Virus record (IMG/VR): IMGVR_UViG_3300042197_003983
Location: 1-22,411 of that record
Length of the DNA stretch: 22,411 nucleotides
Strand: one strand, 5' to 3'
From: a virus
Shown: in pieces, positions 10,336-21,972 of the stretch
Numbering within the stretch: the first letter of the stretch is position 1
How the letters are laid out: every line of letters begins with the position of its first letter
The notes under the pieces: model-generated
The model's database searches: none
The model's input: only the letters and a program-made list of their open reading frames with translations
What the model was told of the DNA's origin: nothing
Position numbers and translations under genes: made by a program

Positions 10336-11382
10336 TTATTGTATGGCCATGATCCGCTCGACCAAATTCTCTATCCGACTGTTAATTTCATGGAGTGCAA
10401 ATGCTTCAATTTTCTCACGGCAGATGCGCGATAGTATTTTGTGTTTTGTCAAAAGATCAAAATTATTTTCAAATCGTTGCCGATTTTTGCAAAAAAAATC
10501 CTGTAATCTATCTAGGTCGGTTAGCACCGACAAATTCTTATTGATCGCCTGATAACATCGATCAAAAGGCATTGATTCTTGCTGGTAGGAATGATCGATT
10601 AAGTCGTCAAATACGTCAAATCCCAGCGTGCGCATATGGTCTGCGATAAGATATCCGCCAACCCAGATTGGAACAGTGCCGCCATAAATGGCCATGACGG
10701 TTTTTTCGGTAATCATGGTCTCGTGCTCATCGTATAAAGGTTCAGTGATCAGCGAAACAAAACTGGGCTCATATATTGATTGTTTCAACAGGTTTTCATA
10801 GACTTTTCCATTGCTGTTGAGTGTACCGTTAAATTCAATATAGTTGTCCGAGGTCAATGACTGATCAGGTGTCAAATACACTGATTGATCTTGCTGTTCA
10901 CAATGGAATATGGCGTCGACAACGGTTCGGTCTAGGCTAGACGATATGTCTTTTTCTTGTATCCAATGGCTGTGTTTTGGCCATGATTGGCTGTAAACAA
11001 AATTGGAGAGATTAAAATAATTTACCAGTCTAGACAAAATCAATCGGCTGGGTCTTACTTTGTTTGCGATAAAGTTGAAAGTTTTTTGTTTATTATCCCA
11101 TTTTACAGCATTCACTGCAAGCATAAATTGTTCTACTTGTAATGCGGTCCTGCCTGGAAAACAAACATGTTGATAGGATTCGAAATCTTGGCACGACAAA
11201 AAATCGTCGAACACGATCAAATGTGACCCGGGGTCGCATGTACTGTTGTCAAGCAATTGTTTTATGGGATAATGCTTTGTATCTGCATCAAAATGATGAT
11301 CTATGATCCATAACACCGTGGGTTCCGTCAAAACCTCACCACGGTAAACGTATCCAGGACCAAAGATTTTCATCACATTCAT
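10336..11382 (-). CDS. Glycosyltransferase-like protein, conserved in aquatic phages
   Basis: A 348-residue protein. The C-terminal half carries ITEKTVMAIYGGTVPIWVGG (224-243) followed by LGFDVFDDLIDHSY (253-266), matching a pattern of phage and bacterial GT-B-type glycosyltransferase-like proteins (E-KT--PI--G-PFI, then LGF-TF---ID-SYD), related to the sugar-nucleotide site of fucosyltransferases. Upstream, NKVRPSRLILSRLV (107-120) fits the same family. The normal Pro-Phe after the Gly is replaced by VPIWV. It would transfer a sugar to an unknown acceptor. It overlaps the gene before it (11379-11382) by ATGA, and it is clearly AT-richer than the plus-strand blocks around it, which suggests recent acquisition. 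Confidence 0.72.
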   Translation of the reverse strand: MNVMKIFGPGYVYRGEVLTEPTVLWIIDHHFDADTKHYPIKQLLDNSTCDPGSHLIVFDDFLSCQDFESYQHVCFPGRTALQVEQFMLAVNAVKWDNKQKTFNFIANKVRPSRLILSRLVNYFNLSNFVYSQSWPKHSHWIQEKDISSSLDRTVVDAIFHCEQQDQSVYLTPDQSLTSDNYIEFNGTLNSNGKVYENLLKQSIYEPSFVSLITEPLYDEHETMITEKTVMAIYGGTVPIWVGGYLIADHMRTLGFDVFDDLIDHSYQQESMPFDRCYQAINKNLSVLTDLDRLQDFFCKNRQRFENNFDLLTKHKILSRICREKIEAFALHEINSRIENLVERIMAIQ

Positions 11383-12203
11383 TGGTTGACTTTCACATAA
11401 AATTTGCAGATATCATTGAGCAGTGACTGATCTGGAACACAGATTCCTATCGAACGATATAGATTGAGTAGAGCCCGATATAATACATCAGAGTCACGAA
11501 ACGATTCCACACTGAAACTCAACTGTGGTTGTTGGTGATTGCTAGGATGACATGTCACCGTGTCCAATGAGCAAAAAATTTTGCTCGACGCATCATTGAC
11601 TATGTATTGATTCCAAAATTCTTGCGGGTCCATGCGTACTTCTTTGACATTATTATACTGTTTTGCCAGCACGCTGCGTTTGTCGCTGCAGAAATCAGGA
11701 TGATCTTGCTTGATCACAAATACTCCAGGCTCTCTCTCAAAATATAACTTCCTTAATTTAGCCCTGTGATACCATGTGATGGCATCTTGAGTGTCAAACA
11801 ACATGTTTATCACTATACATCTGTTGACATAGGCCAATGGCACTGCGCACTTGTTTAATATCAACACGATTTTTTCTTCCCCGCGGTAGTGATCGAGAAA
11901 GAGATCGTCTTGATTTTCCTGTGCCTTGCGCAACAAAGTCTCGTGAGTGATATCGTTACCTCGATCAAATCTGTTGCTGATAAAATCCAGTTTGTACGGA
12001 ACCTCAGGTTCGATCTTGAGATAATTTTTCCAGTCGCGGGTAAAATGGTTTTCAAACCAACGCAGAATTGACAAAGACCTTGTTGTTTTTTGTTGTTCTA
12101 TTTCAGGGTACCAGGCAGCCACATCTCGAGATAACTGTAAACAACAACTGAGAAATTTGCCCCCGCTGCCGGGGGCATATCTGACCAATAAAAATTTGTG
12201 CAC
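11379..12203 (-). CDS. P-loop protein, sulfotransferase-like
   Basis: A 274-residue protein with GTG start at 12203. The N-terminus LLVRYAPGSGGKFLSCCLQL (5-24) has a P-loop-like YxPGSGGKFL, comparable to the YPPGGGGNHL of the protein at 21346 and to the PAPS 5'-phosphosulfate loop of sulfotransferases. The rest lacks motifs I can name; EREPGVFVIKQDHPDF and a helical C-terminus are visible. Close overlap with the glycosyltransferase-like gene suggests a shared glycan-modifying role (inference). It starts 17 bases after phoH ends and may share its transcript. The AT-rich composition matches the following gene, not phoH. Confidence 0.65.
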   Translation of the reverse strand: MHKFLLVRYAPGSGGKFLSCCLQLSRDVAAWYPEIEQQKTTRSLSILRWFENHFTRDWKNYLKIEPEVPYKLDFISNRFDRGNDITHETLLRKAQENQDDLFLDHYRGEEKIVLILNKCAVPLAYVNRCIVINMLFDTQDAITWYHRAKLRKLYFEREPGVFVIKQDHPDFCSDKRSVLAKQYNNVKEVRMDPQEFWNQYIVNDASSKIFCSLDTVTCHPSNHQQPQLSFSVESFRDSDVLYRALLNLYRSIGICVPDQSLLNDICKFYVKVNQ

Positions 12204-13684: not shown

Positions 13685-14201
13685 AGCCCTGGAGTACAAG
13701 GACATGGAGGGCATGATCAAGCCCACCCTGCACGTTGACGAGTTCGCCTCCAAGATGGGCGACGACGATGACATCATAGTGGTATCATTTTTCGTGCGCA
13801 GCCAGCAGGCGGCTCGGGATCTCATGAATTGGTTTGAAAAAGGGTACGACTGGGTAATGGATGCTGATGTTAGCCCTGGTGAGATCAGTCCCGGTCGGTA
13901 TTTGGTCTATATTGAAATGCGCCGGCGCAGCTCGGCCGGACAAAAGTTAGCGGATGCTGTGCAGGATCTGGAAACTCTAACCGAACTAAAACTTGCAGAC
14001 TGGACCATGCACTACGGCGATAGAACCGTGCCTTTTACCCGAGAAATATTTGATCAAATGGTGCCCTTGAGTCCAAAAGAATATCGTGCCCGGCGAGAGA
14101 GCGATCTTAATGAAATGCGCGCAGCAGCTGGCATAGATACGGTACCGGTGTTCGAACGCGATAGAGATATCCGCCAGCTACAGTCCGCAGCCGGTATATA
14201 A
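13656..14201 (+). CDS. Conserved T4-like phage protein, unknown function
   Basis: A 181-residue protein beginning MTKPPFPLCEALEYKDMEGM. The segment MGDDDDIIVVSFFVRSQQAA and then RDLMNWFEKGYDWVMDADVSPGEI (about residues 34-79) is highly conserved in pattern among T4-like phages of aquatic bacteria; a helical tail rich in Arg and Glu follows. Function is unknown. It overlaps the end of the gene at 13130 by 29 bases, and the pair probably forms one functional unit. The start ATG at 13656 is the first in frame, with CAAGATG upstream giving a poor ribosome-binding site, in line with translational coupling. Confidence 0.85.
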   Translation: MTKPPFPLCEALEYKDMEGMIKPTLHVDEFASKMGDDDDIIVVSFFVRSQQAARDLMNWFEKGYDWVMDADVSPGEISPGRYLVYIEMRRRSSAGQKLADAVQDLETLTELKLADWTMHYGDRTVPFTREIFDQMVPLSPKEYRARRESDLNEMRAAAGIDTVPVFERDRDIRQLQSAAGI

Positions 14202-14207
14202 ATCCAA

Positions 14208-14843
14208 ATGCAGTTAACCAGTCACGGCTGTAGTTTTATCTACGGCAGCGAATTATCATCGCCATCATTGTCTTGGCCGTCTTTGATCGCTCGAGATCTA
14301 GGCTTTCGTCATGATTGCTATGCAGTACCAGGCATTGGTAACCTACAGATCATGGAATCTGTTCTGTTAAATGCGGGTGCTGCTGATCTGTGCTTAATCA
14401 ATTGGTCCTGGATAGATCGTTTTGATTTCGTCAACGCTGTGGATGAATCATGGCACACTCTACGTCCTGCATTAGATCATGATCAGGCTACACATTATTA
14501 TCAATACCTACATGGTCAGTACAGAGACATGCTGACCAATCTCAGTTACATTGCGATCACGATAGATTTCCTCCATATTCGACAGATACCATTCGTGATG
14601 ACTTTCATGGATCAATTGCTATTTGATACTGTGTTGGCACAATGGCATCCGCCTGATGCTATAGAGTACCTACAACAGCGAGTGCGACCACACATGATGG
14701 ATTTCGAGGGGCAGAATTTTCTTGATTGGAGCCGAAGCCGGAACTTTGCTATCAGTGCTGCTTGGCATCCACTGGAACAGGCACATGCGGCAGCTGCTGA
14801 TCTTATGATACCTGTTATCGATGCCATTCTGCATAAAGCCTGA
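14208..14843 (+). CDS. SGNH/GDSL-hydrolase-like protein
   Basis: A 211-residue protein. The N-terminus LTSHGCSFIYGSEL has Ser9 in a block I-like GxS motif; PGIGNLQIM (41-49) resembles the block III Gly-x-Asn; ISAAWHPLEQAH (182-193) resembles block V, with His187. The Asp normally three residues before that His is replaced by Ala, so activity is uncertain. SGNH enzymes remove acyl or acetyl groups from sugars and lipids. With the methyltransferase and sulfotransferase-like genes nearby, a role in surface-glycan modification is possible (inference). It starts six bases after the previous stop and its end overlaps the convergent methyltransferase gene by 29 bases. Confidence 0.7.
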   Translation: MQLTSHGCSFIYGSELSSPSLSWPSLIARDLGFRHDCYAVPGIGNLQIMESVLLNAGAADLCLINWSWIDRFDFVNAVDESWHTLRPALDHDQATHYYQYLHGQYRDMLTNLSYIAITIDFLHIRQIPFVMTFMDQLLFDTVLAQWHPPDAIEYLQQRVRPHMMDFEGQNFLDWSRSRNFAISAAWHPLEQAHAAAADLMIPVIDAILHKA

Positions 14844-15345
14844 CCACTTGCCCGTTTGTCTCGCTCTGTTCATTATACTGATGGAAGTTGTGTAAAGCCG
14901 CAAAATCCTGTAACCTGCGATGTGTCCAAGGATAGAACGGAATACCTTGGCATTTTTCAGATGCATGGTCTCTGCGCCCAGGATTGAGACGCCAATAGAT
15001 ACGGGCTGTGGGTTTGAGACAGTCTACCACTTTTCGTATCTGGCGTGAAATGATAGCATCATCACCAAAGTTTAGGCTACCCAGGCAGACCGCAACATCA
15101 AATTTCTTGCTAGCATGGAACTCCTCAATGGTCACACGAAAATCAGCTTCGTCTCGGGCCGGATCGATGCCTACCACATTCTGCACCAAGGTCTTGAAAG
15201 GATTGGCACCACAGCCCACATCTAACAACCATTCGTGGGGAAGGATTTTCGTGGCTATGGTGGCATAGGCGCTATAATTATAGGCATCCACACTGGGCTG
15301 CCAGTGATGTCGAAAATAATCGTTGAGGTATTCTTGATCATGCAT
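14815..15345 (-). CDS. SAM-dependent methyltransferase-like protein
   Basis: A 176-residue protein with class I methyltransferase motif I WLLDVGCGANPF (39-50), an acidic residue after the next strand (VVGIDPARD) and a motif IV-like FDVAVCLGSLNF. The C-terminal half (ARIYWRLNPGRRDH) is compatible with a small phage methyltransferase; the substrate is unknown. I chose ATG 15345, which places the start in a 12-base palindrome shared with the divergent gene at 15340; an upstream in-frame start at 15408 would add 21 residues but would run far into that gene. The 3' end overlaps the SGNH-like gene convergently. Confidence 0.8.
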   Translation of the reverse strand: MHDQEYLNDYFRHHWQPSVDAYNYSAYATIATKILPHEWLLDVGCGANPFKTLVQNVVGIDPARDEADFRVTIEEFHASKKFDVAVCLGSLNFGDDAIISRQIRKVVDCLKPTARIYWRLNPGRRDHASEKCQGIPFYPWTHRRLQDFAALHNFHQYNEQSETNGQVVRLYAEWHR

Positions 15346-15348
15346 GAT
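15337..15348. repeat. 12-base palindrome holding two divergent start codons
   Basis: ATCATGCATGAT is a perfect palindrome. The plus-strand membrane-protein gene starts at ATG 15340 and the minus-strand methyltransferase at ATG 15345, so both proteins begin Met-His-Asp. The two coding regions overlap head to head by six bases. Confidence 0.7.
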
Positions 15349-15567
15349 AAGACAGTGATAGTAAAATGGGCCAGTGCGGTAATCATACTTATAGCTATGG
15401 TATTCCATGTGCTAGGAATCACCCCTTGGAACAGTTTCCTGCAACTGATAGGCGCAGCTGGTTGGGTGTATGTGGGATACAAATGGAACGAAAAAGCCAT
15501 CATCTTGAATTTCCTGCCGCAGTTCGCTATCATCATTCCGGGATTGATCTATCTATGGCTCAAATGA
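15340..15567 (+). CDS. Small membrane protein, three predicted segments
   Basis: A 75-residue protein with hydrophobic stretches at about residues 9-27 (KWASAVIILIAMVFHVLGI), 32-45 (FLQLIGAAGWVYVG) and 56-74 (LNFLPQFAIIIPGLIYLWL). Small inner-membrane proteins of this pattern occur in T4-like phages of aquatic hosts; function unknown. A holin role is possible from size and topology but it is not next to the lysis genes. Longer in-frame extensions upstream lie opposite the methyltransferase gene and are unlikely. It ends in an ATGA overlap with the sulfotransferase-like gene, so both are coupled. Confidence 0.72.
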   Translation: MHDKTVIVKWASAVIILIAMVFHVLGITPWNSFLQLIGAAGWVYVGYKWNEKAIILNFLPQFAIIIPGLIYLWLK

Positions 15568-16145
15568 TCCTGCCCCAAAGGGTGTTCTTCGTGGGGGCTC
15601 CAGGCAGCCGCTGGAGTGGTATTGCGCAAAATATCGAGACTCTAGACGGATTCAATGTCACTGATCGAGACCCTCAACGCCAGTATGAGCATCATGGATT
15701 TACCGGACATATGGGTGCCTACTTTGGCACGGGATGGGAATTTGATCTCAGCCTCGATCCTGAAAATCTGGATCGCCCGTTCACGCACACCGCCGGCACA
15801 CGCATACTCAAGAGCCATGAATGGGCCTACCATCTGGACGAGATCCGCGCACGCTATCCTGATGACTGGATCATGCTGGTGCATCGTCCGGACATGAGCT
15901 GTTTCGCATGGTGGCACGAGGCCGGGGGCTTTACAATAAAATATCCAGATTATTTGCCCTATTATCGTGACTCGATAAATATGTTCGCAGAGATACAAAG
16001 GATGAACCAGAGTATGTTTGCATTCAGCCAGAAGCATGATCTTGCCTGGCATCACATATCATCATCTTGGATCGAAGCCACTTTTGGCCGGGCAGTGGAG
16101 CCCACGGTCCGTCTAGCAGACACCCTTGTGTGTTGTTTGAAGTAA
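15564..16145 (+). CDS. Sulfotransferase-like P-loop protein
   Basis: A 193-residue protein. RVFFVGAPGSRWSGI (6-20) is a phosphate-binding loop like the PAPS 5'-phosphosulfate loop; GTRILKSHEWAYHLDEIR (78-95) and IMLVHRPDMSCFAWWHEAGG (103-122) match the later core, where the Arg-Pro-Asp region corresponds to the 3'-phosphate-binding segment. The pattern GAYFGTGWEFD (51-61) recurs in a family known from cyanophages. It would move a sulfuryl group from PAPS to an unknown acceptor, if active. The ATG at 15564 overlaps the previous stop as ATGA; an ATG at 15555 is also possible. Confidence 0.75.
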   Translation: MILPQRVFFVGAPGSRWSGIAQNIETLDGFNVTDRDPQRQYEHHGFTGHMGAYFGTGWEFDLSLDPENLDRPFTHTAGTRILKSHEWAYHLDEIRARYPDDWIMLVHRPDMSCFAWWHEAGGFTIKYPDYLPYYRDSINMFAEIQRMNQSMFAFSQKHDLAWHHISSSWIEATFGRAVEPTVRLADTLVCCLK

Positions 16146-16164
16146 TCCTACAAGGAAACTAAAC

Positions 16165-17130
16165 ATGAAACGAGTAATAGCAACCCTGTTGCTGTGTGCC
16201 TCTGCGAGTGCATGGGCCTGGCAACCATCAAAACCTGTAACTGTGCTGATCGGATTTGCTCCAGGCAGCGGTAACGAAATGAGCTTCCGCGCTATGGCAC
16301 AACAAGTGGAAAAAACCACCGGGGCCACATTCGTGGTGGTCAATCAACCTGGAGCAGATGCAGCCATCAGCCTCAACAACTTGGTGGCAGCACGACCTGA
16401 TGGACATACTATCAATGTGGCTAGCCAGCAGGGCACCTGGGTCATGGCCGATGTAATTTCAAAAGACATAATCAAATTCACTCCAGAAAGTTTTGAATAC
16501 ACTCTCAATATCGCCAAGAGTCCTCTCGCGCTGATTGCCCCTGTCGACAGCACGGTCAACACGCCACAAGAATTCGTGCGGTTGATCGAATCCGGCACCA
16601 AGCAGGTCAACATAGCGGTAGGTGCCAGCAGCCATAAACTGGCCTATGAATATGTGATGTCGCATACCCGTGCCAAAAAAGACACCGTCGTTGCGGTCAA
16701 TTACAAAGGTCCGGCGCCAGCTGGAGTTGATGTAGCCGGAGGCCAAGTGGACTTTGGTATCATCCCTGCAGCCGTGGCCTACAACTTGGTCAAAGCCGGC
16801 AAAGTAAAGTACATCGGTCTTTTCGGTGAGCAACGATTGAACCGGATCCCGGATGTCCCACTAATGAATACCGTGGTACCTGGTGCCAATGTCTATGCCG
16901 GTTGGGGAATTTTGTTACCCGCTGGCACACATTCTGACATAATTAAATGGTATCATGAAAATTTCTTGCGCGCCATACGCACTCCAGAAGCGACCAAGTT
17001 CTTCGCGGAAAATCTCATGTTCGTGGAAGAACGCGAGCTCACCCCTGAGGGATACAAACGGAGCATGCTTGACCTGCGCCGAGTATGGTTGCCTATAGCG
17101 CAAAAGATGGACTTTGGAACATCAAAATAG
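16165..17130 (+). CDS. Tripartite tricarboxylate transporter binding protein (Bug/TctC family)
   Basis: A 321-residue periplasmic solute-binding protein of the usual family length. Residues 1-18 form a signal peptide (MKR, hydrophobic core, cleavage after ASAWA). The mature part has the family marks KPVTVLIGFAPGSGNEMSFR (24-43), VVVNQPGADAAISLN (58-72) and ARPDGHT, which form the carboxylate-binding pocket. Such proteins bind citrate, other dicarboxylates or similar acids for TctAB-type permeases; the membrane subunits are not in this window, so it would have to work with host permeases or act alone. AAGGAA (16152-16157) is a good ribosome-binding site. The family is very abundant in Betaproteobacteria. 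A phage copy is likely an auxiliary metabolic gene. Confidence 0.92.
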   Translation: MKRVIATLLLCASASAWAWQPSKPVTVLIGFAPGSGNEMSFRAMAQQVEKTTGATFVVVNQPGADAAISLNNLVAARPDGHTINVASQQGTWVMADVISKDIIKFTPESFEYTLNIAKSPLALIAPVDSTVNTPQEFVRLIESGTKQVNIAVGASSHKLAYEYVMSHTRAKKDTVVAVNYKGPAPAGVDVAGGQVDFGIIPAAVAYNLVKAGKVKYIGLFGEQRLNRIPDVPLMNTVVPGANVYAGWGILLPAGTHSDIIKWYHENFLRAIRTPEATKFFAENLMFVEERELTPEGYKRSMLDLRRVWLPIAQKMDFGTSK

Positions 17131-17137
17131 GACTGAT

Positions 17138-17974
17138 ATGACAGCACGACGCATCCTTATCATGGGCCTGCCTGGATCAGGCAAGACCTTCCTGGCCCAG
17201 GCCTTGAAGCAGTATATCGAGACTAATTCGGCATTTTTCCGGCCCCAGGCTGAAGCCTTGTACGGCAGCTATGCCATGGTGGAGTGGTTCAATGCCGACG
17301 ATGTTCGCAAACGCTTCAATGACTGGGACTTCAGCTCGGAAGGTCGCATAAGGCAGAGCCACAGGATGCGTGAGCTGGCGGATAAAAGTAACGCAGATTT
17401 CGTGATAGCGGATTTTGTCTGCCCGCTCACAGAGATGCGCAACAACTTCAAGGCCGATTGGTGCATCTGGGTAGATACCATAGAAGCCGGCAGGTACGAG
17501 GACACCAACCGTATGTTCGTACCGCCTGAGTTCTATGATTTCCGCATCACTGAACAGGCTGCAGAAAAGTGGTCGGAATTCATAGGCAATCACATCCTGG
17601 AAAATCGCCGTAGACCTAGGTTTGACTGGAAGGCACCCACTGTTGAGCAACTCGGTAGATGGCAACCTTGGCACGCTGGACACCGAGCATTATTTGAGAG
17701 ATTGATACAACGTACCGGACAGGTCTGTATCATGATACGTGACTGCCAAGGGTGGAATCAGTCAAATCCATTCTCTTGGAGTACAGTGAAAGATGCCATA
17801 CGCCGAGACCTAGATCCGCTCTATCAAGGACAATATGAAATATTAGTAGTTCCTAATATCACTCACATTGGATACGGTCGCGGAGTAGGCTACACGATAG
17901 AAGAAGAGAAGTTTGATGAATCTATTACAAGCATTTCAGGAACTGAGATACGCCGACAAATGGGACTGAAGTGA
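17138..17974 (+). CDS. Adenylylsulfate-kinase-like / nucleotidyltransferase fusion
   Basis: A 278-residue two-domain protein. The N-terminal domain has Walker A GLPGSGKT (10-17), WFNADDVRKRFNDWDFSSEG (50-69) and VIADFVCPLTEMR (89-101), a pattern close to APS kinase (CysC) and its phage relatives. The C-terminal domain is an HxGH nucleotidyltransferase: GRWQPWHAGH (173-182) and ISGTEIRR (266-273), as in NMN adenylyltransferase, cytidylyltransferases and, more distantly, ATP sulfurylase. Together they could produce activated nucleotides, perhaps PAPS for the sulfotransferase-like proteins nearby; substrate identity is not proven. Start ATG 17138 with TAGGA upstream; earlier in-frame ATG 17114 lies in the previous gene. 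A GTGA overlap joins it to the next gene. Confidence 0.82.
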   Translation: MTARRILIMGLPGSGKTFLAQALKQYIETNSAFFRPQAEALYGSYAMVEWFNADDVRKRFNDWDFSSEGRIRQSHRMRELADKSNADFVIADFVCPLTEMRNNFKADWCIWVDTIEAGRYEDTNRMFVPPEFYDFRITEQAAEKWSEFIGNHILENRRRPRFDWKAPTVEQLGRWQPWHAGHRALFERLIQRTGQVCIMIRDCQGWNQSNPFSWSTVKDAIRRDLDPLYQGQYEILVVPNITHIGYGRGVGYTIEEEKFDESITSISGTEIRRQMGLK

Positions 17975-18636
17975 GCCGAGAGCATGTTCGCTATCAGCAG
18001 GCTAAAAATTATATCCAAGCCTGTACTAACGGACCATTAACATATTTGCGCACTCTCAAAAATGCCAGCAGTTTTTTTTACAACAGTTTTACCGGCAGTT
18101 TAAGGTGGTGGCCAATCTCCTGGGCCGAAATACAATGGCACGAAACGCATGTTTTCTCGCATATCCAGGATCCGGTGGAACGGCGGCATAAGGGCATACT
18201 GGAGTACCTATTAATCACAAATTGTGAAGATCTATTGCTGGACACAAAGTTCCAGAGATTGATCAAACATGTACCTTGCATGGACGAACACACCGTGAGC
18301 CTGTTTGAAATGTATGGTTCATGGTGCCATAGCATTGATTGGATTCCTTTATATCCCGATCATGCCATGACCACAGCATTGACTGAAAAACTGCTGAAAG
18401 TTTACGGTCAACGCCTGTTTCCGTGGGATCATGCCGAAGCCAGGCCGGCCTCTGACAAAATGCGAGAACTGTGTCAACTGCTGCGAGATATCTGGATCGA
18501 TGCGGACCAAGGTTATCTTCCCGGGCACACTAAGGCATATCTATCGAGAGATTTGGATCTGTACGACAAAGTGATGTCAAAGTTCAATCCCCATGGTGAC
18601 CAATGGTCAAGTTGTTCATGGTTGAGACAAGAATAA
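17971..18636 (+). CDS. Sulfotransferase-like protein
   Basis: A 221-residue protein with GTG start overlapping the previous stop (GTGA). Residues 26-40 (LRTLKNASSFFYNSF) resemble the 5'-phosphosulfate loop (K-A-S/T) of carbohydrate sulfotransferases, and VFSHIQDPVERRHKGILEYL (61-80) resembles their 3'-phosphate motif (RxPxxRxxS), although the first Arg is replaced by Gln. DEHTVSLFEMYG and SIDWIPLYP are further recurring marks of this phage family. Direct coupling to the APS-kinase-like gene is the best contextual argument for a sulfation role. It could equally be a diverged non-catalytic relative. Confidence 0.72.
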   Translation: MSREHVRYQQAKNYIQACTNGPLTYLRTLKNASSFFYNSFTGSLRWWPISWAEIQWHETHVFSHIQDPVERRHKGILEYLLITNCEDLLLDTKFQRLIKHVPCMDEHTVSLFEMYGSWCHSIDWIPLYPDHAMTTALTEKLLKVYGQRLFPWDHAEARPASDKMRELCQLLRDIWIDADQGYLPGHTKAYLSRDLDLYDKVMSKFNPHGDQWSSCSWLRQE

Positions 18637-20031: not shown

Positions 20032-20365
20032 TGGCTGTGGATCGTTTGGTTGGCGCAGCGTTGAGCCCATAGAGCTACACAAACGGGCGGTGGAACGCAC
20101 ACCACTTAATCTGCCGGATCCTGCACCTCCCAGGGCACGCGAAATGGAATGGATAATCATCACTCCCGACAATGCAGCAGCCACATGGCAACGACTGCGT
20201 GATGCCAACACCGATGTGGTGTTGTTCGCGCTCACAGATGATGGCTATGAGACCCTGGCTCTCACGATGGCCGAACTGCGCAACTTTATCGCCCAGCAGC
20301 GCGGTATCATCCTGAAATACCGAGAATATTACGAAACTAAAAAGGCAGATGAAGCAGCAAAGTGA
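19982..20365 (+). CDS. Outer-membrane lipoprotein spanin (Rz1-like)
   Basis: A 127-residue protein with GTG start at 19982 inside the 3' end of the i-spanin gene. The signal sequence VNVRTLLIAITLPLVLSGC ends in the lipobox LSGC with Cys19 as lipid-bearing residue. A proline-rich stretch (LNLPDPAPPRAREMEW) follows, and then a globular helical part (TPDNAAATWQRLRDANTDVV), which is longer than classic Rz1. An o-spanin is anchored in the outer membrane and binds the i-spanin, so the host is expected to have a Gram-negative envelope. No in-frame ATG gives the signal peptide, which supports the GTG start. Confidence 0.85.
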   Translation: MNVRTLLIAITLPLVLSGCGSFGWRSVEPIELHKRAVERTPLNLPDPAPPRAREMEWIIITPDNAAATWQRLRDANTDVVLFALTDDGYETLALTMAELRNFIAQQRGIILKYREYYETKKADEAAK

Positions 20366-21356
20366 TCTGCCGGTCATCAACAGCCACGACAGCTGGAGTC
20401 CGCTACAAGAAGCATGGTTGGGTGATGTGTACCCTGTAGAGTGGTACGAACATCTTGATGCTCCTGTGCGAGATGTTTTCCAGCGGCTGACCGAAATCAC
20501 ACAGCAAGATCTGGCCGCGATCCAGCAAACCCTGGAATCATTTGATGTCCTAGTGCAGAGACCCCGTTACCAACACATCGATCACTATCTGCGAGATGGC
20601 AATCTCATCAAGCCCGATATCTGTCCCCGAGACACTTGCTTGGTGGTAGGAAACTGCCTCATGTTGCCAGAGTCTTACCGGCCCTGGCAACACGCGATCA
20701 ACCAATACAGCCAGGACTCAAGATGCCAGATACAGCCCGGTTTCACTGGCACGATCAATGGTGCCAATGTTGTGAGGATTGGCCGAGACATCATCATTGA
20801 TCGCGACTGTTATGATTTTGAATATGACCATCGCTGGCCTGGGTATCGCGTACAAGTGGTCAGCAACGGCGGACACATGGATGGTTGCTTCGCCATCCTC
20901 AGGCCTGGTCTGATCTTGGCCAATCACTACTGGGACGATTATGAGCGCACCTTTCCTGGCTGGGAGATCATACGATTAGATGACCCTACCTATCATGCGG
21001 CACCCAGCACAGGTTATCAACAACCCTATCCGGTATACAACGGCAAGTTCTGGGATACCACTGTGGGCAATAACCGCAGTTTTAACCAGCATATCATAGA
21101 TCATGCCCTTGATTGGGTGGGTTGTTATACAGAAACCTATTTTGAACTCAATTGTTTAGTGATCGATCCTGCCAACGTGATCATGCTGGCAGAAAACCAA
21201 ACCTTGGCTGACACGCTGTACAGTCGCGGTATCACTGTGCATTGGGTGCCCTTCCGGGCGCGTAGTTTTTGGGATGGTGCTATGCACTGCCTCACTGTGG
21301 ACATCCGCCGGTTAAGCCAGATCACGGACTATTTCCCAGAGCGCGATGGCCATTAA
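20349..21356 (+). CDS. Glycine-amidinotransferase-like enzyme
   Basis: A 335-residue protein of the pentein-fold amidinotransferase family; length is near bacterial members. Aligned by eye to glycine amidinotransferase: INSHDSWSPLQEAWLGDVYP at the N-terminus, CPRDTCLVVGN (92-102), GANVVRIGRDII (138-149), HMDGCFAILRPGLILAN (176-192) and WDGAMHCLTVDIRR (308-321). His176, Asp178 and nucleophile Cys314 match the catalytic His, partner Asp and Cys. The catalytic Asp usually found in FDAAD/N is Asn137 here (TINGAN). The family moves an amidino group from arginine to an amine acceptor. Its acceptor is unknown. It overlaps the o-spanin gene by 17 bases and the next gene by 11. Confidence 0.86.
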   Translation: MKQQSDLPVINSHDSWSPLQEAWLGDVYPVEWYEHLDAPVRDVFQRLTEITQQDLAAIQQTLESFDVLVQRPRYQHIDHYLRDGNLIKPDICPRDTCLVVGNCLMLPESYRPWQHAINQYSQDSRCQIQPGFTGTINGANVVRIGRDIIIDRDCYDFEYDHRWPGYRVQVVSNGGHMDGCFAILRPGLILANHYWDDYERTFPGWEIIRLDDPTYHAAPSTGYQQPYPVYNGKFWDTTVGNNRSFNQHIIDHALDWVGCYTETYFELNCLVIDPANVIMLAENQTLADTLYSRGITVHWVPFRARSFWDGAMHCLTVDIRRLSQITDYFPERDGH

Positions 21357-21972
21357 CATCATGGTTTATCCGCCCGGAGGTGGAGGCAATCATCTCAAAA
21401 ATCTTCTAGAACTCAATGGTCGGTTCTGTGATCAATGGCCGTGGCCTTGGGTGCGCGAACAGCGGGTGGGATTGGCGCCCTACGATCGACCTCCGGGCCC
21501 CCCTGGAGAGGTGCACAGCCTTCCAGGGCGCAACATACACGCTGTTTTCGTGGATCATGTCAACCAACATGCTCACGGAGACTATCTCCTCCACGGACAT
21601 TTTGGCGAACTGGCAGAACATGCGGATAGAATTAGATCTTGGACCGATGTGCGGTGGTTGATAGAGACCATGGACGATCAGCAAGATAGAGATCTACTGC
21701 GGCAACGACAGCACCGTCTTGATTACCATCCCTACTGGCAGGACGAAGAACAGATTTTCTTGTATCGACCAGAGATGTATCGCAGATATTTTGGTGCGGA
21801 TCCGGCCCGGATCTGTGCGCTGCCCGTGAGATTGTTATGGCAGAGAGATATCGTGGCCAGTGGTGTTTTAGAGATATTGCAAACAGCATTTGACATTGTG
21901 ATAGATCAGCAGGCAGCCCAGTATCTGCACAGCAAGTGGTGCGATCTGAATTTTGGACCCACTGTAGTTTGA
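21346..21972 (+). CDS. P-loop protein, sulfotransferase-like, conserved in aquatic phages
   Basis: A 208-residue protein beginning INIMVYPPGGGGNHLKNLLE. The YPPGGGGNHLKNLL loop (8-21) resembles a phosphate-binding loop and parallels YAPGSGGKFL of the minus-strand protein starting at 12203. Other recurring marks are PPGEVHSLPGRNIH (52-65), LLHGHFGELAEHADR (81-95) and LDYHPYWQDEEQIFLYRPEMY (124-144). I do not see a clear 3'-phosphate motif, so sulfotransferase activity is uncertain. It overlaps the amidinotransferase gene by 11 bases, suggesting coupled translation and perhaps a shared modification pathway. Confidence 0.62.
   Translation: MAINIMVYPPGGGGNHLKNLLELNGRFCDQWPWPWVREQRVGLAPYDRPPGPPGEVHSLPGRNIHAVFVDHVNQHAHGDYLLHGHFGELAEHADRIRSWTDVRWLIETMDDQQDRDLLRQRQHRLDYHPYWQDEEQIFLYRPEMYRRYFGADPARICALPVRLLWQRDIVASGVLEILQTAFDIVIDQQAAQYLHSKWCDLNFGPTVV

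Follow-up and report, generated by a model that had tools for sequence, protein, structure and literature searches.

The animal proteins PAPSS1 and PAPSS2 are composed of an N-terminal adenosine 5'-phosphosulfate (APS) kinase and a C-terminal HxGH nucleotidyltransferase, and they form 3'-phosphoadenosine 5'-phosphosulfate (PAPS) in a two-step reaction. The genes cysC and cysH occur as phage genes. Phage genes of the Sulfotransfer_3 family are known as well and their function was called unclear (PMC10580990), and our literature searches turned up neither a previous description of a PAPS synthetase fusion in phages nor one of the nucleotidyltransferase family described here. The domain order of PAPSS1/2 and the conserved APS contacts of their kinase recur in KNT, a gene of a 22.4 kb viral record from IMG/VR (IMGVR_UViG_3300042197_003983; its 22,411 nucleotides are referred to as the window), which is probably a fragment of a T4-like phage. 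Judged from its sequence and that of its relatives, we consider it likely that KNT is a compact phage PAPS synthetase, which would supply PAPS to nearby phage sulfotransferases. The features on which this reading is based are the following:

15564-16145, plus strand: S15564, 193 residues, putative sulfotransferase-family protein by the motifs G.PGS.WSG, KSH and HRPD..WW, its relatives and its AlphaFold2 (AF2) fold
17138-17974, plus strand: KNT, whole open reading frame, 278 residues, P-loop kinase domain and HxGH nucleotidyltransferase domain
17138-17626, plus strand: APS-kinase-like domain of KNT, residues 1-163, by Pfam PF01583, PDB profile search, Foldseek and alignments
17627-17974, plus strand: compact HxGH nucleotidyltransferase domain of KNT (NT), by alignment, PDB profile search and its contexts in SAR11 and Marinimicrobia; proposed ATP sulfurylase

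In the proposed mechanism, NT would act as ATP sulfurylase and convert ATP and sulfate to APS and pyrophosphate, and the kinase domain would phosphorylate APS at the 3' hydroxyl to yield PAPS, as in PAPSS1/2. During infection, PAPS would then be used for sulfation by S15564 in this phage and by Sulfotransfer_1/3 proteins in many relatives, with a surface glycan or a part of the virion as the most probable target. What can be read from the sequences is the fusion, the family of the kinase, the invariant catalytic motifs and the conserved gene neighbourhoods, and from these we infer the reaction and the direction of NT, the transfer step and the target.

An initial annotation of the window had described an APS-kinase-like domain fused to an HxGH nucleotidyltransferase at 17138-17974, and both domains were confirmed. 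By sequence and predicted fold, the kinase half belongs to the APS-kinase family. As a single protein KNT passes the cut-off of the Pfam model APS_kinase narrowly (PF01583, 24.3 bits, cut-off 21.1); the Pfam model KTI12 is also just passed by the kinase domain, and KNT stays below the apsK equivalog cut-off of NCBIfam (21.2 vs. 138.7). With a profile built from 11 sequences, the 16 best distinct chains in PDB were all APS kinases (2yvu 7.5e-17; human PAPSS1 1.5e-13). The AF2 model of KNT, predicted from an alignment without isolate-phage rows, has a predicted local distance difference test score (pLDDT) of 85 and a predicted template modelling score of 0.71, and Foldseek places APS kinases at the top of its matches, among them full-length PAPSS1, aligned over 249 columns. 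The P-loop reads GLPGSGKT. In CysC from M. tuberculosis, APS is contacted by Asp480, Arg483, Phe492 and Arg497 (PMC4373884); alignment with canonical CysC identifies D54, R57, F65 and R70 of KNT as their counterparts, and these four residues are invariant across a 25-row alignment of phage and cell fusions.

The function of NT is approached best through cellular genomes. No other heterotrophic bacteria are as abundant in the surface ocean as SAR11, which encode NT as a stand-alone protein of 126 residues. In 67 of 71 SAR11 loci the next gene downstream of NT is aprM, and 66 loci also carry aprB and aprA on that stretch (AprB by Pfam); three of the remaining loci go straight to a gene for a TauE-type exporter and one has apr on the other strand. 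Sat (PF01747) was found in none of 16 NT-bearing SAR11 genomes. A screen with PF01507 (CysD/CysH) gave weak matches, mostly in GuaA-like frames of ~520 residues; the exceptions were frames of 290 and 355 residues, each in a single genome. This screen was therefore not taken to show that the genes are absent. ATP sulfurylase was reported to be absent from most SAR11 (PMC10356861), and the SAR11 APS reductase to be under strong purifying selection (PMC12636525). Two further genes recur at these loci: a CADD-family gene (TIGR04305, 1e-89; L103:5292-5957) lies directly upstream of NT in most of them, and a HIT-domain gene (e.g., L146:8836-9234), the product of which could be an APS-consuming enzyme, is found near aprMBA and TauE in 22/71 loci.

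In Marinimicrobia, NT is present in 16 of 245 genomes, and in 14 of these 16 it is preceded by an APS-kinase gene on the same strand, which overlaps with NT or directly adjoins it. In two genomes, G155 and G067, this adjacent kinase is a canonical CysC (PF01583 2e-70 and 1.4e-67). Sat was found in only two of the 16 genomes (G155 and G178) and CysD in none of them, leaving G067 with CysC and NT and without a known route to APS, although genomes of this kind may be incomplete. Within one block of 25 small Sat-less genomes, which was picked after seeing the data, NT and APS kinase are distributed as 13/0/1/11 (p 2.7e-6), i.e., concordantly in 24 of the 25. One of the NT clusters in Marinimicrobia constitutes a polysaccharide locus that includes a Sulfotransfer_3 gene. 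Furthermore, kinase and NT are adjacent, overlapping genes in SAR86, and kinase-NT fusions are also encoded in one SAR11 and one other Pseudomonadota genome.

AprBA, CysC and the phage kinase have one metabolite in common, APS. NT would most simply be the enzyme that forms it or, in SAR11, consumes it, i.e., an ATP sulfurylase. On balance, we favour for NT an ATP sulfurylase of a third type, next to Sat and CysDN, that descends from NadM-like nucleotidyltransferases. It would provide the missing step of SAR11 sulfite oxidation, serve glycan sulfation in Marinimicrobia and, by fusion to the kinase, give hundreds of phages a PAPS supply of their own. The SAR11 loci also bear on a different reading, in which NT would break down APS (e.g., APS and phosphate to ADP and sulfate, or solely APS and pyrophosphate to ATP and sulfate) and the phage fusion would remove or recycle APS. 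The AprBA context predicts net sulfite oxidation and thereby APS consumption (PMC12636525), but where NT is paired with canonical CysC and neither Sat nor CysD is encoded, APS has to be formed, sulfotransferases cluster beside KNT, the separate HIT-domain gene of some SAR11 loci offers a possible APS consumer, and the ATP sulfurylase reaction is reversible, so that one enzyme may run in both directions. We regard APS breakdown as improbable, and as less likely than the NAD salvage discussed below.

The Marinimicrobia loci further bear on an activation of sugar or polyol phosphates by KNT, which would yield a donor resembling ADP-heptose or CDP-glycerol for decorating glycans. Domains of the HxGH superfamily make such donors, glycan genes are located near KNT, and in Marinimicrobia, four NT genes are convergent with a gene resembling, by eye only, the heptose kinase half of HldE. 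However, these HldE-like genes are encoded on the opposite strand and accompany a minority of the NT genes, sugar genes are absent beside NT in SAR11, and the kinase half belongs to the APS kinases and retains their APS contacts. Sugar activation is therefore considered very unlikely, again less likely than NAD salvage.

The proposed link of KNT to sulfation comes from phage gene neighbourhoods, which were compared in 140 phage loci falling into 107 nonredundant groups. The gene cluster found most often next to KNT contains sulfotransferases and is represented in 30 of the 107 groups; all seven sampled members passed the Pfam cut-off (Sulfotransfer_1/3). Of 44 neighbouring sulfotransferase genes, a count inflated by near-copies, 43 are located upstream of KNT and all 44 on the same strand, at a median distance of 1.15 kb, while plus-strand open reading frames are about equally common on either side of KNT. 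For S15564, which had initially been annotated as sulfotransferase-like, 6/20 relatives match Sulfotransfer_3 (best 1.3e-5) and the folds nearest to its AF2 model (pLDDT 92.8) are sulfotransferases, with a weak E of about 0.02; the copy in the window, however, has no family match, and a PDB sequence search with the S15564 profile gave no match. The S15564 type is found in 13 further KNT groups and it is more divergent than the classic neighbour sulfotransferases such as L080:6472-7350. A strong association of KNT with PF13469 at the level of contigs (6/8 contigs with the KNT fusion vs. 0/24) was dropped, as PF13469 misses many S15564-type proteins, and a six-frame motif count over gp44 loci was discarded for the same problem at the level of loci.

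KNT is a real and widespread gene of many uncultured bacterial viruses. Its relatives are encoded in at least 504 IMG/VR stretches retrieved by pattern scans, which is far beyond chance, and among isolate phages five encode a relative, with 36-38% identity. In a tree of NT, the copies from metagenomic phages form one group (94/96) and those of isolate phages another, with the SAR86 and two Marinimicrobia copies near the phage group; most forks are weak. The kinase domain occurs alone in two phage contigs (G276 and G277, the contigs of L276 and L277), in which no NT was found at E 1e-10. In the sibling contig L254, most flanking genes of which are 82-99% identical to the window, KNT is cut down to its first 26 residues (L254:17349-17426) before a peptidase gene. 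Since flanks this similar accompany the loss of most of KNT, this stretch is regarded as a variable cassette.

Several observations weigh against a function of KNT in PAPS synthesis for neighbouring sulfotransferases. In a profile search against PDB, the nearest matches of NT are NadM nicotinamide mononucleotide (NMN) adenylyltransferases (1f9a 8.9e-11). The Sat model PF01747 is not passed (three of 12 NT members match weakly, best E 0.0035, 17.2 vs. 24.3 bits) and QxRN, the sulfate-coordinating motif of Sat, is absent from NT. The NTs of Marinimicrobia are on a long branch in the NT tree. In the kinase half, the lid, which in CysC carries Lys562 and Phe576, is short and difficult to align, no clear equivalent of the catalytic Lys562 is seen, and CysC Asp478, the first Asp of LDGD, is replaced by Asn in most phage copies and is Asp in others. 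A NADAR-domain gene, i.e., a nucleotide-metabolism context, overlaps the KNT start in Stenotrophomonas phages (L082:5562-6005, L085:4562-5005). Finally, S15564-type genes were counted by motif in 8/11 contigs with KNT and in 7/21 without (p 0.06), and the sibling phage L254 keeps S15564 though KNT is lost beyond the remnant. As the motif count finds this type in 7/21 KNT-less contigs, its association with KNT is only suggestive, and since it is found without KNT and is kept after KNT loss, S15564 may use host PAPS or act otherwise.

The similarity to NadM, which includes the NCBIfam models PRK01153 and TIGR01527, and the NADAR gene speak at the same time for the main rival explanation, NAD salvage. 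Here the kinase would phosphorylate nicotinamide riboside and NT would form NAD by adenylylation of NMN, a NadR-like scheme with the two domains in opposite order that would serve, e.g., to replace NAD destroyed by host defences. The initial annotation had named clustering with NAD or sugar-nucleotide enzymes as an argument against PAPS synthesis; by sequence NT indeed falls with the NAD-type nucleotidyltransferases, but the kinase half does not, being an APS kinase and not a ribosylnicotinamide kinase by profile and fold. The match of NT to NadM is confined to the first ~76 columns, the NMN-binding C-terminal segment is absent, and the curated NadM cut-offs are not reached (24.6 vs. 127 bits for PRK01153, 22.5 vs. 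181 bits for TIGR01527). As the curated cut-offs for Sat and NadM are both missed, the substrate of NT is not named by sequence alone. Against NAD salvage, the SAR11 NT resides with aprMBA in a clade in which NadD is already present in 5/8 genomes, and the Marinimicrobia NT follows genes for CysC or other APS kinases. NAD salvage is thus judged unlikely and KNT as PAPS synthetase is preferred.

Beyond KNT and S15564, the window contains the following genes that had been drawn into the initial annotation or that recur at KNT loci:

11379-12203, minus strand: P-loop-like gene, motif APGSGGK only, without match in Pfam or PHROGs
14208-14843, plus strand: SGNH-hydrolase-like gene (initial label), recurrent neighbour at KNT loci, without family match
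14815-15408, minus strand: methyltransferase-like gene, weak match to Methyltransf_23 (0.0035), near KNT in 15/80 loci
16165-17130, plus strand: TctC, tripartite tricarboxylate transporter solute-binding protein (PF03401 1.4e-29), between S15564 and KNT
17971-18636, plus strand: S17971, 221 residues, coupled to KNT, sulfotransferase likeness at the motif level only
21346-21972, plus strand: P-loop-like gene, motif PPGGGGNH only, without match in Pfam or PHROGs, one relative with 90% identity

The translational coupling of KNT to S17971 is borne out by the sequence, in which the stop of KNT and the start of 17971 overlap in GTGA. The assignment of S17971 as sulfotransferase found no support, as neither the protein nor its two relatives match a Sulfotransfer model in Pfam or PHROGs; these relatives are divergent (39% and 29%) and both encoded immediately downstream of KNT, at loci that had been retrieved via KNT. 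The genes at 11379 and 21346, proposed as sulfotransferase-like P-loop relatives, have no sulfotransferase match in Pfam or PHROGs either, and their P-loop appearance is limited to motifs. IMG/VR pattern scans returned no relatives of 17971 and 11379 and one of 21346. A glycosyltransferase-like call at 10336 and the SGNH-hydrolase-like call at 14208 likewise lack a supporting family match in both databases. The methyltransferase at 14815 has its weak family match, and the amidinotransferase-like protein at 20349 has a weak match to ADI (0.029), which is exceeded by a PHROG of unknown function (7.9e-13). Thus, the joint PAPS pathway that had been proposed is partly supported, mostly by relatives: the kinase family, the NT contexts in SAR11 and Marinimicrobia and the upstream phage sulfotransferases argue for it, but three of the four sulfotransferase calls in the window were not sustained. 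The window also encodes the C-terminal part of a superoxide dismutase, an Fe-S assembly protein, tail genes, a clamp-loader-like AAA protein, PhoH and DnaJ.

In other phages, TctC genes are located near KNT in 15/107 groups, and the sibling L254 has a TctA permease gene (PF01970, 3.5e-93) and a second solute-binding-like gene without family match (14112-15554 and 15578-16663). A P-loop-like family ILILTGPQGAGNHLWSK (L046:6756-7376 and 16 others) occurs in 12 groups, mostly directly upstream of KNT; its tested members have no Pfam match and it may be a further sulfotransferase-like family. Carbamoyltransferase and cytidylyltransferase genes recur beside phage KNT in 12 groups each (L201:3166-4863; L055:153-635), hinting at a wider glycan-decoration region. 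A neighbour in the Stenotrophomonas phages, annotated as cysteine dioxygenase in one record (L086:1120-1815), has no Pfam match.

Compared with the known systems, NT has motifs in common with two enzyme types. With NadM and NadR it shares GRxQPxHxGH, NPF and [SG]TxxR, as seen in its motif series GRWQPWHAGH, IRD, NPF, YGRGVGY and ISGTEIR. It differs from them by the absent NMN-binding segment, by a YGR[DG]VGY block that is invariant or nearly so in the NT family, and by its linkage to APS genes instead of NAD genes in SAR11 and Marinimicrobia. With Sat it shares HxGH, GRD and SGTxxR (GR[DG] and S[AG]TxIR-like in the family) and the proposed reaction, whereas it lacks QxRN, an N-terminal domain and a family match above cut-off. 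CysD belongs to another fold family. If NT is an ATP sulfurylase, a 126-residue enzyme beside aprMBA would close the SAR11 pathway and let it yield ATP. The closest counterpart of the whole protein remains PAPSS, which has a Sat-type ATP sulfurylase where KNT has a NadM-like NT of ~115 residues, and in which the kinase lid is not shortened as in KNT. If KNT acts in the same way, phages would have a concrete PAPS source that gives their sulfotransferases a role and suggests sulfation as a common phage activity. With 278 residues compared to 563-630 in PDB chains of PAPSS, KNT would then be, to our knowledge, the smallest PAPS synthetase, a size that may interest makers of PAPS for enzymatic sulfation.

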